A stretch of DNA of 64,000 nt from Chloroflexota bacterium (GTDB lineage Bacteria; Chloroflexota; Limnocylindria; Limnocylindrales; CSP1-4): contig JAJXUG010000015.1 of the NCBI GenBank assembly GCA_021783095.1, positions 16,080 to 80,079 of the forward strand. The letters are read 5' to 3'. Both the position numbers and the translations under genes were made by a program. Position 1 is the stretch's first letter. The number at the start of each line of letters is the position of its first letter. Shown one piece after another: positions 32,672-53,668 of this stretch. The notes under the pieces are model-generated. The model was not told where the DNA came from. It made no database searches and worked only from the letters and a program-made list of their open reading frames with translations.

Positions 32672-33576
32672 TAGGCCCAGGACCGAAGTTCGTGTGGATC
32701 AACGGCGAGGTGCTGCCGGCCGACGCGTGCCACCTGTCGGTGAACGACCGCGGCTTCCAGCTGGGCGACGGCATCTTCGAGACGCTGCGCGCGAGGGCCG
32801 GCCGGTGCACCGAGCTGCCCGAGCACGTGGCGCGGCTGCGGCATTCGGCGGCTGGCCTGGCGATCGAGCTCCCCGATGACGTGGACGTGAGGCTCGCCGA
32901 CGGGATCGCGAAGCTGCTGGCCGCGGAGGCGCTTGACGGACCCGACAGCGACGCCTCGGTGAGGATCACCGTCTCGCGCGGCGTCTGGGCCTCACGCGGC
33001 CTGCTCCCGTCCCGGGACGTGCACCTGGCCCCCACCATCGTCATCCAGGCGTGGCCGGTCGACCCGCCGCCCGCCGGACATCTCGAGCGCGGCATCGCGG
33101 TGGTGGCGTCGGCCATCCGTCGCGACCCGCAGAACCCCATCGTCACGCTCAAGACCACGTCGCGAGCCGACTACGTGTTCGCCCGCCTCGAGGCCCGCCG
33201 CGCCGGCGCCGACGACGCGCTGTTCCTCACCAACACCGGCCACCTGTCCGAGGCCACGACCGCCAACGTGTTCCTGGTCCGCACGGCCCTCGACGGCGTG
33301 CTGGAGCTCGCGACCCCGGCGCTCGACTGCGCGATCCTCCCCGGCACCACGCGCTCGTGGCTGCTGCGCTGGGCAGCGACCGCGGGCTTGCGGCCGTTCG
33401 AGGGCTGGCTCACCCCCGACGAGCTCGCGACCGCCCACGAGGCGTTTTTCTCGTCGTCGGTGGCGGGCGTCCTGCCGATCACGCGGTTCAACGGCCACCC
33501 GATCGGCGACGGGCTGCCAGGACCCCTGACGCGCCGTGCGCGCGCCGACCGCGAGGCGATGATCGGCCGGGGCTAG
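32668..33576 (+). CDS. pabC: Aminodeoxychorismate lyase-like class IV aminotransferase
   Basis: A 302-residue PLP enzyme of fold type IV. It shows WINGEVLPADACHLSVNDRGFQLGDGIFETLR (quoted in parts), the Schiff-base lysine in VTLKTTSRADYV, the glutamate in HLSEATTANVFLV that contacts the pyridine nitrogen, and FFSSSVAGVLPITR near the end. The pabB remnant in front argues for PabC, which releases 4-aminobenzoate from aminodeoxychorismate. Branched-chain or D-amino-acid aminotransferases are alternatives, and with pabB broken it may have another role now. Start GTG 32668. Confidence 0.82.
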   Translation: MIGPGPKFVWINGEVLPADACHLSVNDRGFQLGDGIFETLRARAGRCTELPEHVARLRHSAAGLAIELPDDVDVRLADGIAKLLAAEALDGPDSDASVRITVSRGVWASRGLLPSRDVHLAPTIVIQAWPVDPPPAGHLERGIAVVASAIRRDPQNPIVTLKTTSRADYVFARLEARRAGADDALFLTNTGHLSEATTANVFLVRTALDGVLELATPALDCAILPGTTRSWLLRWAATAGLRPFEGWLTPDELATAHEAFFSSSVAGVLPITRFNGHPIGDGLPGPLTRRARADREAMIGRG

Positions 33577-33605
33577 CTGTCTGCAGTCGGGCGATGGCTC
33601 ACGGG

Positions 33606-33728
33606 CGCCCTCGCTGGCACGCTCATGTGCCAACTCGCGATTCTGCGAGCGTGACTCGCGCACCAAGTCGGAACTCCACGCGCGGCCCGTGCTTGGGGCA
33701 GGCCAGAATGGCACAGCAGCGTGCCAAG
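33606..33728. repeat. 123-bp structured repeat, copy A (left flank of vapBC)
   Basis: About 85% identical, base for base and without gaps, to copy B at 34672-34794. Its ends are terminal inverted repeats of the form TGGCACGCT-NNN-GTGCCA, and each end is itself a hairpin (TGGCAC/GTGCCA). Inside are GCGAG-CGTGA-CTCGC and GCGCG-GCC-CGTGC hairpins. In the other copy loop and stem bases differ, but the stems still pair. The element begins 22 bases beyond the vapC stop. Confidence 0.85.
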
Positions 33729-33749
33729 GCATCGCAGTCCCGACCGCGA

Positions 33750-34226
33750 TCAGGGGAACGGCAGGTGGTCGCTTGCCAGCACCACGCCAATGCGTTCGCC
33801 CATGGGTGCCAGCTTGCGATGCCAGCTGCGGTCGTTGGTTATCAGGTGGTGCACCTGGGTCGCCAGCCCAGTGCCCACAATGAGTGCGTCCGGTGTGCCG
33901 AAACGCAGCGACGCGCGCACGTGGGCCGCTTCCTGGGCGACCTCGAGCTCGATCGGAACGCATTCGAGATTCGGAAACGACCGCAGGAAGGCGAGCATGG
34001 TGCGGTGCCCAGGCGGCGTCGCGCGCATTGGGCGGACGAGCAGCTCCATGACCGAGACCATGGAAACCACCGCAGGGTTGCGGCCAGTCGCCACCAGCTC
34101 CTTCAGCACGTAGTCGGCGACCGGATGCGTGGCATCGCGAGCGTCGACGAACGCAATGAGAACCGTCGTGTCGAGGAGGATCCGATCGCCCTCGGCGATG
34201 ACACTGCGGAGGCTGTCGACCGACAT
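33750..34226 (-). CDS. vapC: VapC-type PIN-domain ribonuclease toxin
   Basis: A 158-residue PIN domain with the expected acidic residues D19 (LLDTTVLI), E61 (VMELLV), D113 (TPDALIVGTG) and D132 (ITNDRSW). They coordinate Mg in a metal-dependent RNase. VapC toxins cleave tRNA or rRNA and are held inactive by the cognate antitoxin. Start ATG 34226 is two bases after the antitoxin stop, so the pair is cotranscribed. The whole operon with its promoter lies between the two 123-bp repeats. Confidence 0.9.
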   Translation of the reverse strand: MSVDSLRSVIAEGDRILLDTTVLIAFVDARDATHPVADYVLKELVATGRNPAVVSMVSVMELLVRPMRATPPGHRTMLAFLRSFPNLECVPIELEVAQEAAHVRASLRFGTPDALIVGTGLATQVHHLITNDRSWHRKLAPMGERIGVVLASDHLPFP

Positions 34227-34228
34227 GC

Positions 34229-34489
34229 CTATTCGCCCCAGGATGCGCGCTCCTCCTGGATGTAGGCGAGCACCTCCTCGGTGCTCCCCCACATGCCAGT
34301 GAGGCTGCCCGAGAAGTCGCGTGGCATGCGTCGAACATGAACGACGCCCGGTTCGCCAGGGTCCGCCTCGAACGCGAGGACGTCGTCTGGTGTGGCGCCG
34401 AGCGCGCGGACGATCGCGTCGGGCACGGTGATCTGGTTCTTCGCTCGCAGTCTTGCGTCGGCCGCGATCGGGCCTGTCGTGATCGTCAT
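34229..34489 (-). CDS. vapB: AbrB/SpoVT-type antitoxin (VapB-like)
   Basis: About 86 residues. ARLRAKNQITVPDAIVRALGATPDDVLAFE is the swapped-hairpin AbrB DNA-binding fold (quoted in parts). The C-terminal part (MPRDFSGSLTGMWGSTEEVLAYIQEER) should wrap the PIN toxin. I chose ATG 34489, six bases after GAGGA; ATG 34501 in the same frame is also possible, given how close the promoter is. As in other VapBC operons, it probably represses its own promoter. Confidence 0.8.
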   Translation of the reverse strand: MTITTGPIAADARLRAKNQITVPDAIVRALGATPDDVLAFEADPGEPGVVHVRRMPRDFSGSLTGMWGSTEEVLAYIQEERASWGE

Positions 34490-34511
34490 CGGCTTCCTCA
34501 TGGTGCGACGG

Positions 34512-34540
34512 AGCCTAGTGAGTCCGACGCTGGCCGTCAA
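34512..34540 (-). promoter_or_regulatory. vapBC promoter
   Basis: On the minus strand: TTGACG (34540-34535), a 17-base spacer and TAGGCT (34517-34512), ending 10 bases before ATG 34501 and 22 before ATG 34489. The spacing is canonical. Confidence 0.6.
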
Positions 34541-34671
34541 TTCCTACTGGCGTCGGCGCATTCTCACCGCCCAACACTGCAAGGACAGCGTGGCACATGA
34601 CACTCATCGCAGGCTTACGCGGAACGCCCGACTAGGAGGATTCGCGGCGCTCCCGCGGCGTCGCCGAGCGA

Positions 34672-34794
34672 CGCCCTCGCTGGCACGCTCCCGTGCCAAA
34701 CCGAGACCCCGCGAGCGTGGCTCGCACTCCAAGTCGGCACTTCACGCACGGCCCGTGCTCGGAACTGACCGGGATGGCACAGCAGCGTGCCAAG
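34672..34794. repeat. 123-bp structured repeat, copy B (right flank of vapBC)
   Basis: Same length and order of hairpins as copy A (33606-33728), offset 1066 bases. It keeps the terminal inverted repeat TGGCACGCT-NNN-GTGCCA and the inner hairpins GCGAG-CGTGG-CTCGC and GCACG-GCC-CGTGC. It ends ten bases short of the DinB gene's stop codon (34805). Both copies thus lie immediately 3' of a minus-strand gene. Confidence 0.85.
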
Positions 34795-34804
34795 ACCCAG
34801 CGAG

Positions 34805-35305
34805 CTACGCCAGCGGATGCTCGTACGCGTAGAAGGCGTAGTCCTGCGGCGGGGTCTCGAGCCCCTGGTCGCGCAGGGCGCGCAGGATCTGCGCCCGATG
34901 GTCCGTCCCGTGGTTCGCCACGTGGAAGAGGACTTCCCAGAGGAGCAGGTCCTTGTCCTCGCCCTCGGCCCACGGGTGCTGGCCGAGCGCGTCGTCGGTG
35001 ACGCCCGCGAGGTACTCGCGCATCCGCCGCTCCACGTCGTCCCAGCGCTCCCGGATCGCAGCGCGCGTCGGCGTCGGCATCGGCGCGCCAGGCGCGGTGT
35101 CCTCGGGCCATGGGTCGTTGCGCAGCCCGGTGAACCATCCCTCGTCCACCGCGAGCAGGTGCTGGAGCTGGTGGCGAACCGATCCGTGCGAGTAGGCGAT
35201 CTCCTGGTCGAAGGCTTCGTCGGACAGCTGGCTGGCGACATCCCAGACCAGCCGGTTCATCGCGAAGTGGTAGTCGTAGAGACGGCGGAAGGCGTCGGCG
35301 TTCAT
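34805..35305 (-). CDS. DinB-family four-helix protein
   Basis: A 166-residue DinB/YfiT-like helical bundle. The likely metal-binding histidines are in VRHQLQHLLAVDEGW and FHVANHGTDHRAQI, the usual three-His arrangement. The family includes thiol transferases dependent on bacillithiol or mycothiol and proteins of unknown role; nothing here narrows it. ATG 35305 has no ribosome-binding site, but GACAAT lies six bases upstream on the minus strand, so the message may be leaderless. Confidence 0.85.
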   Translation of the reverse strand: MNADAFRRLYDYHFAMNRLVWDVASQLSDEAFDQEIAYSHGSVRHQLQHLLAVDEGWFTGLRNDPWPEDTAPGAPMPTPTRAAIRERWDDVERRMREYLAGVTDDALGQHPWAEGEDKDLLLWEVLFHVANHGTDHRAQILRALRDQGLETPPQDYAFYAYEHPLA

Positions 35306-51589: not shown

Positions 51590-52195
51590 ATGCGCATCGC
51601 GATCCTCGGAGCCGGCAACGTGGGTGGCGGCCTTGGCAGGGCGTTCGCGGCCGCGGGCCACGACGTCGTGTTCGGCGTCCGCGACCCGGAGAGCGTCAAG
51701 ACACTCGCGGCGCTCGCGGACATCCCCGATTCGGTCGCCGCCTCGCCCGGGGTGGCGGTCGAGGGCGCCGACGTGGTGGTGTTCGCCGTGCGGCCGGTGG
51801 CCATCACCGCGACGGTCTCGGAGCTGCCCTCGCTGGCGGGCAAGGTCGTGATCGACGCGATGAACCGCTTCGACGCCGAGGTCACGGCCCGCTCGACCAC
51901 GCAGGACCTCGCACAGCTGCTGCCGGGCGCCAAGCTGGTCAAGGCGTTCAACACCATCGGCTTCGAGAACTTCGGCTCGGCTGGCGCGCGCTCGATCCCC
52001 GCCGCCATGTTCATCGCCGGCGACGACGAGGACGCCAAGCGCGTCGCGATGCGCCTTGCGGAGCAGATCGGGTTCCAGCCCGAGGACGCCGGCGGCATGG
52101 CCAACACCAAGGTGCTCGAGGAGATGGTCAAGGTCTGGATGGCGCTCGCGCAGGCGCACGGTCGGACGGTCGCATTCGCCATCTCGGAGGGCTAG
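51590..52195 (+). CDS. NADPH:F420 oxidoreductase-like (Npd/Fno family) protein
   Basis: A 201-residue Rossmann protein. MRIAILGAGNVGGGLGRAFA is the dinucleotide site, and FGVRDPESVKTL with its Arg suits NADPH. AKLVKAFNTIGFENFG is the conserved family segment. Members move hydride between NADPH and F420, but many homologues have other substrates. It agrees with the F420-type nitroreductase at 12392. ATG 51590 is preceded by GGAGG. The upstream 271 bases, to the divergent GGDEF/EAL gene, hold no other gene. Confidence 0.82.
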   Translation: MRIAILGAGNVGGGLGRAFAAAGHDVVFGVRDPESVKTLAALADIPDSVAASPGVAVEGADVVVFAVRPVAITATVSELPSLAGKVVIDAMNRFDAEVTARSTTQDLAQLLPGAKLVKAFNTIGFENFGSAGARSIPAAMFIAGDDEDAKRVAMRLAEQIGFQPEDAGGMANTKVLEEMVKVWMALAQAHGRTVAFAISEG

Positions 52196-52409
52196 GGGCC
52201 GCCCCAGCGCCCTACCGGCCCGCTCCGGCCCGCTCCGGCCCGCTCCGGCGCCCGCCTGAGTCGCGCAAGACTCAAGTCGGCGGCTGCTGAGCGTGCCGCA
52301 GGGCCGAAGATCCCGGGTTGCGCCGCCGATCGTGCACGATGGCGTCGAGAACGAGTCGGTGACGACTCAAGACTCAAGGCGCGCGGGGCGCGGCATCAGC
52401 GAATCGAAC

Positions 52410-52465: not shown

Positions 52466-53668
52466 CTAGTTGCCGATCATCGCGTAGAAGGCGCTGGTCG
52501 GGGTACCCAGGCCGGTGACCTGGTCGTATCCCGTCGCGCTGTGGATGGTGAGCCCGGTCGTGAAGTCGAACGAGCGGAAGATGTAGGTGTAGCCCTTGGT
52601 CGCGTCGATCCCGTTCTTGTAGTTCACGCGGACCACGCCGGCATCCGCGACGTGCACGATGTCGTTGTAGGCGGCGCTGCCGGCGGCGGCGTACAGCTTC
52701 GGGTTGGCGAAGCCGAGCGCGTGCCCGACGTGCTGCTCCGCCAGCGCCATCATGCCGGCGAACAGCGGCGAGGCCAGGCTCGTGCCGCCGATCCGGTACT
52801 GGTCGTAGTAGGTGCCGTCAGGGAAGACCTGCGTCTCGCCGATCAGCATGCCGGTGTTGGGGTCGGCCAGCGCCGCGACGTCAGGCACGGAGCGCATCGC
52901 GGTGCTTCGTGCTCCGTCGACGGTGGCAATCGTCGTCGGGACGACGCCCGCCTGCCAGGTCGGCTGCACGAACAGACGGCTGGTGCCGCCACCGGATCCG
53001 TAGAGGTAGGCGCCCGGGGCGGGCGGGGTCCACATGCCGGACTTCAGCGTGCTCGTCCCCGACTCCCAGCCGGTCTCGATCGCGATCGAGTTGTTCTGGG
53101 CGATCCCGAGGCTGGTGCCGCCGACGGCGGTCACCCACGGCCTCGATGCCGGCCAGTCGGGCGTGGCGGAGGCGGCGTTGGCCGCGATGCCGCCGGTCTC
53201 GTCGCCGCCGTCGCCGGACGAGAACAGGACGGTGATGCCCTCGGCTGCCGCCTGGATGAAGGTGTCGTTGTATGGCTTGATGTAGCCGGTGGGCAGCGCC
53301 TCGCCGCCGAAGCCGTACGAGTTGGTCACGATGTCCGCGAGGTGGCGGTCGACCACGTGGTTCAGCGCCGCGTCGAGGTCCTGGTAGTTGTTGGGTGCAC
53401 CGACGTAGACCAGATTCGCGGCCGGGGCCATCGCGTGAACGGCCTCGAGGTCGAGCGTCTCCTCGCCAGCCCAGCCGGCCGGATCCTGCGCCCTGTTCTG
53501 CGCCCGGCGGTGGACAGGAGGGCCGAATCGAACGGGCGCGGGCCGTGCGGCCGGCGCGGAGTCCGTCGCCTCGCAGGCGACGGGCGAGCCGGGTCGGGGG
53601 CGCCGGGGTCGTCCGAGTCGACCCACGATGTCGGCGAGAGCGGCCAGCGCGCTGGGGCATCGCCACAA
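52466..53668 (-). pseudogene. Sedolisin (S53) peptidase lacking prodomain and signal
   Basis: From about 53482 down, the frame is good S53 sequence: E and D of the Ser-Glu-Asp triad in GEETLDLEAVHAMAP, the oxyanion Asp in LFSSGDGGDE, the nucleophile in YRIGGTSLASPLFAGM, and the C-terminal TGYDQVTGLGTPTSA. Everything normally ahead of it, a signal peptide, ~180-residue prodomain and the first ~60 catalytic-domain residues, is absent. The open frame upstream to 53668 is Arg/Pro-rich, unrelated sequence. Another frame there reads SWVDSDDPGAP, perhaps a decayed remnant. Without prodomain and signal it should not mature, so I call it broken. Confidence 0.72.

Follow-up and report, generated by a model that had tools for sequence, protein, structure and literature searches.

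Among described repeats, the closest counterparts of the elements reported here are REPINs, inverted doublets of a short palindromic site that are approximately 70 to 110 bp long, lie in extragenic DNA, and form a hairpin in single-stranded DNA, as described in PMC3116915. The same source reports compensatory changes within REPINs and tandem clusters of near-identical units that include their flanks. REPIN populations are explained by a single enzyme, RAYT, which is proposed to move them. CGTC-tagged REP dimers apparently lack a dedicated transposase, and REPs of the GTAG type were reported there in Chloroflexi (PMC3733652); at least three Chloroflexota genomes are listed in a 2025 REP survey (PMC12306157). 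ERIC/RU-1, Correia, RUP, and other MITE-like repeats are 100 to 200 bp long, mostly intergenic, and have terminal inverted repeats that form a hairpin (PMC2229807; repeats such as ERIC and Correia are also treated in PMC2267715). Our literature search, which was limited and says little about what is in print, recovered no recognised description of the element presented below.

The DNA analyzed here is a stretch of 64,000 nucleotides (the window) from a Chloroflexota genome designated G000, and the features under study are collected in Table 1. Two copies of the element, A and B, are found in the order pabC-A-vapC-vapB-B-dinB, pabC being short for the class IV aminotransferase gene. When positions 33300 to 35300 were compared to themselves, A and B were returned as a single repeat of 123 bp with 82.9% identity and no gaps, in agreement with the equal length and gap-free alignment given in the preliminary description, and no homology was reported past the 123-bp borders; similarity stops near the borders of the element. 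That description also placed inverted TGGCACGCT-NNN-GTGCCA sites at the extreme ends of each copy. Such sites are present at both ends, but they start 9 bp inside the copies and delimit a core of 112 bp. Each copy adjoins the end of a minus-strand gene, as had been noted, with 24 bp between A and the end of vapC and 13 bp between B and the 3' end of dinB, and A is also 39 bp from the end of the plus-strand aminotransferase gene. The exact site pattern occurs twice in forward and twice in reverse orientation in the source assembly (90% complete), always in A or B, and a reversed control gave 0 matches; chance matches to the pattern are present in other genomes. A third, diverged copy sits in a convergent gap of the window, between genes called at 51590-52195 on the plus strand and 52466-53626 on the minus strand.

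Table 1. Coordinates of the elements and neighboring genes in the window. A copy is listed as plus when its inner CGAGCGTG motif is read on that strand.
Feature	Position	Strand	Evidence
Class IV aminotransferase gene (pabC), ends 39 bp before A	32692..33576	+	gene call, profile matches
Copy A	33606..33728, core 33615-33726 (112 nt)	+	covariance model, 112 bits; self-comparison
A left terminal site, TGGCAC-N6-GTGCCA	33615..33632	+	pattern match TGGCACGCT-NNN-GTGCCA
A inner conserved motif (family consensus CGNGCNNGG)	33646..33654	+	alignment
A right terminal site, inverted version of left	33709..33726	-	pattern match TGGCACGCT-NNN-GTGCCA
Toxin gene with a VapC-like PIN domain, lying between the two copies and outside the element	33750..34226	-	PF01850 E 2.6e-10; NF047959 far below cut-off
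Presumed antitoxin gene, weakly PrlF-like (below cut-off)	34229..34489	-	gene call; no Pfam match
Copy B	34672..34794, core 34681-34792 (112 nt)	+	covariance model, 106.3 bits; self-comparison
B left terminal site	34681..34698	+	pattern match TGGCACGCT-NNN-GTGCCA
B right terminal site	34775..34792	-	pattern match TGGCACGCT-NNN-GTGCCA
DinB-family gene	34805..35305	-	PF05163 E 3e-21
Third, diverged copy, box type TGAGTC/GACTCA	core 52257..52369	+	covariance model, 35.9 bits, E 2e-5

A and B are members of a repeat family that is present in multiple genomes, is a real feature, and is not tied to vapBC. BLAST of A against its own genome gave nothing better than E 0.06 besides A and B, and against 107 genomes of the same taxonomic family it gave one extra match (23 bp, E 9.7e-4). 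When the exact two-site pattern was searched in 177 genomes of the class, the only genome found besides G000 was G009, of the same genus, with a third copy of equal length. A covariance model (R1) built from these three copies, in which pairing was restricted to the outer two-part stem, gave at least 36 matches in 9 of the 177 class genomes, 32 of those listed being in the same genus. The second model (R2), built from 19 elements, matched 10 of the 12 genus genomes at E<=0.1, with no match in G008 or G010. Its strand hits, which are not locus counts since one element often scores on both strands, numbered at least 139 in G015, 103 in G009, 48 in G000, 33 each in G012 and G014, 20 in G006, 18 in G011, 2 each in G007 and G013, and 1 in G016 (E 0.04). 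At E<=0.001, R2 matched 13 of the 177 class genomes in 4 genera, the three further genera contributing 5 matches in G056, 7 in G099, and 1 each in G097 and G073. The family is thus visible only through the two-site pattern and structure models and not through BLAST. The covariance modeling proposed in the preliminary description has proven usable, and the MITE-like structured element suspected there exists across genomes and well beyond this locus.

For a closer view, 61 stretches totaling 936 kb, picked mostly because they contain a match, were scanned with R2, giving 194 strand hits at E<=0.01. The best 150 of these, with both-strand duplicates merged, represent at least 89 distinct loci in seven genomes; one locus is truncated by a contig end, and the third copy of the window was left out of this set. 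Copies lie at or near contig ends in L182, L183, L184, L185, and L265, where tandem clusters have probably been under-counted. Among phages and plasmids A gave no match, and viral contigs gave 0 matches to a two-site pattern covering TGACNC-type boxes only. A double pattern match in the Poribacteria record L076 was judged unrelated, as the site lies within a stretch that is repeated in that contig.

The core measures 113 nt in 66 of the 89 elements and 112 nt in 12. The 66 cores of 113 nt were reduced to 52 non-redundant cores by discarding any that was more than 85% alike to a core already accepted. At 112 nt, A, B, and the C26 copy of G009 fall outside this set, and they belong to a separate alignment of 19 rows. 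At both ends of the core, in inverted orientation, is an 18-bp site of the general form TGANNC-N6-GNNTCA, which occupies positions 1-18 and, as its inverted counterpart, 96-113 of the 52-core consensus. Farther in are CGNGCNNGG at 32-40, its mirror CCNNGCNCG at 74-82, and AA/TT at 52-53/61-62, with the dyad centre at about position 57. Exact element-derived boxes are separated by a spacer of 6 in 110 of 113 sites, 100 of which are within the 89 elements; of the remaining 10, 4 are in weaker model hits, 4 at stretch ends, and 2 adjoin an element. Lone terminal sites at L234 9946-9963 and L239 9685-9702, at most 60 bp from a full element, look like remnants of local duplication. When folded as DNA, 9 of 10 cores tested formed the full long hairpin, the exception being L192, in which mainly the inner part was paired. 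The 52 cores contained no GTAG/CGTC or other conserved tetranucleotide beside or within the sites, and their flanks were no more alike at 1-9 nt than shuffled flanks, so that no target-site duplication was found.

Practically all of the 89 loci are intergenic, overlaps with predicted genes being limited to 19 nt at one locus and 3 nt at three others; ten loci are at an edge and have a neighboring gene on a single side. An element was present in 30 of the 137 convergent gaps, in 26 of the 534 co-directional gaps, and in 11 of the 136 divergent gaps. Because the stretches were chosen for elements, these values are informative only as a ratio of one gap type to another. The neighbor scan, which covered 133 of 137 neighbors and 130 control genes (three of 133 drawn were left out), gave no shared neighbor family, the top Pfam family matching no more than 4 of 133. 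This commonest family was PIN (4/133), which was absent among the control families with at least 2 of 130; these numbers are too few to tell and are suggestive at most. Defence genes were in no clear excess among the 25 families listed per set.

The terminal sites covary, outer boxes pairing with outer boxes and inner with inner through double changes. Across the 52 cores, 358 of 416 cells at positions 1-8/106-113 were paired, compared to a shuffled mean of 287.7 (13 G.T, 15 A.C), as were 290 of 312 cells at positions 13-18/96-101, compared to 247.3 (8 G.T, 4 A.C), counts that, like those of the 19-row alignment below, are biased toward the helices because members were found with models rewarding those helices. 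Column pair 4/110 was C-G in 38 cores, G-C in 8, and T-A in 3, and column pair 15/99 was G-C in 28 and C-G in 19. Covariation was concentrated at 1-8 with 106-113 and at approximately 11-21 with 93-103. None was in excess at 9-10, 22-31, the inner motifs, or the flanks, the exceptions being columns 41/73, which were paired in 29 of 52 cores against an expectation of 15.3, and a weak excess close to the tip. The two further hairpins with preserved pairing that had been described within each copy are therefore not a family-wide property. The 19-row alignment, with A and B among its rows, had 92.6% of its 285 cells paired versus 78.7% in shuffles, and both sides had changed in 47 cells, each value being reached by 0 of 500 shuffles; pairing dropped to 23-36% in slid registers. 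Two of the five measures in this test were weak, namely pairs with a double change (9 versus 7.4, a value equaled or exceeded in 8 of 500 shuffles) and further pair types (20 versus 18.7, equaled or exceeded in 148 of 500). Columns 73 and 109 of the 52 cores, which form no pair, rank fourth in correlation, which indicates that shared descent plays a part.

Within the terminal helices, G.T (21) and A.C (19) were about equally rare in 728 cells. Such rarity of both mismatches on either strand favors a DNA hairpin over a particular RNA hairpin, and from the alignment the changes look more DNA-like than RNA-like. The alternative, an RNA hairpin transcribed at the 3' ends of genes (a terminator, mRNA stabiliser, or small RNA) and maintained as a selected RNA structure, would account for the enrichment in convergent gaps, for the z values of -1.0 to -3.2 obtained when A and B were folded as RNA, and for some excess of G.T over A.C at positions 19-21 (26 versus 14 in the 52 cores). 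We nevertheless consider it unlikely, given the balance of G.T and A.C in the terminal helices, the dyad symmetry of an inner motif that does not covary, the 0 Rfam matches over the gathering score in the window, and a terminator scan, which sees loops of 3-8 only, that returned no terminator at A or B.

We compared the boxes of the two arms within individual elements. In the 28 cores from G014 and G015, whose inner boxes are mostly GGGTCA or GACTCA, the inner boxes were identical in both arms in 24, compared to a shuffle mean of 13.0 and maximum of 22 in 2000 shuffles. The outer boxes of these cores agreed in 23 of 28 (shuffle mean 19.0, maximum 23), which adds nothing. The elements nearest to each other by interior shared an inner type in just 17 of 27 cases, so these are not two clean subfamilies, and interiors within one inner-box type were slightly more alike (0.538 versus 0.518, permutation p 0.001). 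With all 52 cores shuffled within genomes, the outer boxes were identical in 38 (mean 31.4, maximum 37) and the inner boxes in 35 (mean 24.8, maximum 35). From these sequences it seems that pairing is required for each element, or that the arms are copied from each other, in addition to some shared descent.

Taking these results together, we interpret the elements, with moderate confidence, as intergenic DNA palindromes of approximately 113 bp that are REPIN-like non-autonomous hairpin repeats moved by a predicted enzyme. In single-stranded DNA, pairing between the terminal sites likely produces a long hairpin; the active form would be single-stranded or cruciform DNA, its terminal sites would be recognized by a predicted host or mobile enzyme, and this enzyme would copy or move the unit, as proposed for REPINs. 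Both the mobility and the enzyme are predictions, whereas the family, its anatomy, the covariation of its terminal helices, its intergenic placement, the local near-identical copies, and the presence of an element at one orthologous site in two genomes but not in others are direct observations. Our confidence is set at this level by the helix-rewarding models and by the subfamily signal in the inner boxes. The search for RAYT (Y1_Tnp, PF01797, E<=1e-5) was positive in 0 of the 12 genus genomes (72-92% complete) and in 5 of 14 control genomes, and no autonomous parent, that is, a gene between half-elements, was seen in 936 kb. A loose scan with the half-element gave 122 matches inside the 89 elements and 179 outside, the latter including weaker copies and element ends and being mostly inseparable from chance.

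One observation that counts against the hairpin-repeat interpretation is that G at box position 3 (TGGCAC) occurs in all four boxes of five of the 19 rows, A, B, and three others, a pattern also expected of a binding site. Recognition of the element as double-stranded DNA by a protein that organises the chromosome or has a regulatory role, with four half-sites YGRNNC plus the inner CGNGCNNGG motifs in a fixed 113-bp frame, is consistent with the narrow length distribution, with the symmetry of the conserved motifs, and with box types that tend to be genome-specific and ends many of which are themselves palindromic. Several box types occur per genome, however, and the inner ones match arm by arm, which binding alone does not require; the copies are also patchy among relatives. 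We therefore regard a binding site as quite unlikely.

The relationships among copies bear on how the hairpin repeats may have spread. Near-identical copies (92-99%) were observed directly and are local, being 139-229 bp apart or having one to four genes between them, usually with flanks included. The nearest relative of a dispersed copy is 60-75% identical, so any spread must be old; the exceptions are A and B (81% in this comparison), two copies at contig ends that are 98% identical, an orthologous pair shared by G014 and G015 (97%), and a copy truncated by a contig end. The most likely origin of A and B is that a single unit was copied locally within this lineage. At one orthologous site, on G000 C32, the element is also found in G009, in a 709-bp gap, and the gaps in G006, G007, G008, G011, G012, and G015 are 10-86 bp with no match; at a site on C3, the gaps in G006, G007, G011, and G014 are 42-104 bp with no match. 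Other genomes were left out of these comparisons (single flank, kilobase gap, or sequence not compared). The relatives are approximately 190-250 bp shorter at the two sites, with no clean junction, and since this is more than the length of the element, no exact insertion joint can be defined. Genome counts suggest gain rather than loss in this lineage. Separately, a 5-kb stretch is 94% identical between G014 and G015 (L262 3980-9154, L269 3781-8942) and lies near a 76% stretch; two elements are conserved in its 94% part, perhaps through recent exchange.

The preliminary description read A and B as the boundaries of a vapBC cassette. In G009, where pabC is 89% identical to that of the window, the order is pabC-dinB-vapC-vapB, with vapBC and dinB swapped, and no match to the element was found at this locus. 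As far as this one relative shows, vapBC is thus independent of A and B. Between pabC and the next gene in G006, G012, G013, G014, and G015 (sequences) and in G011 (coordinates only), no vapBC, dinB, or element was found, and the aligned ends of the two genes are 43 to about 330 bp apart. DinB protein was found at E<=1e-20 in just 4 of the 107 family genomes. With these loci and the mixed neighbors described above, vapBC boundaries were rejected as a property of the family, and the vapBC genes between A and B are probably bystanders. Counting against a bystander role are toxin-antitoxin-type genes between or beside copies on G009 C62, for which we retain a low-probability variant of the cassette idea. 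In this region (L181, 1106-5819), PIN, RES-domain, and AbiEi-type antitoxin genes are found among six element copies; the partner of the PIN gene is presumed, and an HTH-nucleotidyltransferase gene adjoins the last copy.

Other observations were made at the pabC-dinB region. In the G009 gap (L144, about 1314-1453), another long palindrome, GATCGCTGCCAG...CTGGCAGCGAT, was seen by eye where the window has A, and this region contains further near-copies of GATCGCTNCCAGCGAT; a second family of repeats may be represented here. A frame adjoining dinB in G008 (L143, 2124-2927), a genome with approximately 3 kb between pabC and dinB, looks transposase-like by eye.

The retained variant would require a recombinase that processes hairpins, differs from both RAYT and the integron integrase, copies and locally duplicates palindromes throughout the lineage, needs matching arms, and occasionally frames or reorders toxin-antitoxin blocks; if true, genes would be shuffled in an integron-like manner with no integrase of known kind, but we consider it very unlikely. 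Folded integron attC sites have a two-part imperfect stem with an unpaired middle, and their core boxes are GTTRRRY/RYYYAAC. That the elements are themselves attC-like recombination sites with the genes between copies (vapBC, and those of G009 C62) as exchangeable cassettes is highly improbable, because, although they share this stem and sometimes lie beside toxin-antitoxin genes, and although vapBC and dinB are swapped between G000 and G009, integron integrase (TIGR02249) was over cut-off in 0 of the 12 genus genomes (partial matches below cut-off occur in 12 of 12, and in 13 of 14 controls), the aligned members have other boxes with no GTTRRRY, the loop part holds conserved sequence, orientations are mixed with no long arrays in 936 kb (the largest cluster being the six copies of C62), the PIN neighbors are too few to tell, and no element was found at the vapBC locus of G009.

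Compared to ERIC/RU-1, Correia, and RUP as described in the sources cited, the family shares size, intergenic placement, terminal inverted repeats, and a hairpin. Most repeats of that type, as described, are A+T-rich with TA ends and target-site duplications, whereas this family is G+C-rich, shows arm-by-arm variation at its ends, and gave no sign of a duplication. Like the CGTC REP dimers, it consists of dimers without a known transposase, but it has no CGTC tag and is built of 18-bp sites with a 6-nt spacer in a 113-nt frame. With REPINs, in the features covered by their description, it has in common the inverted doublet of a palindromic site, the single hairpin, the intergenic location, the compensatory changes, and the local clusters with flanks. 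Unlike REPINs, it is accompanied by no Y1_Tnp match in the 12 genus genomes and no conserved GTAG/CGTC tetranucleotide at its sites, has hardly any single sites with exact boxes (single REPs are common remnants there, although not strictly defining), and combines strongly diverged dispersed copies with a conserved motif inside the spacer. A hairpin-doublet family with coordinated arms and no RAYT in 12 genomes would point to another palindrome enzyme or to selection-based upkeep without transposition, and the R2 model can be used to annotate otherwise blank intergenic DNA in this lineage. By the tests made here the family is not a REPIN, but the REPIN is the closest known kind, and the family most likely works like one.
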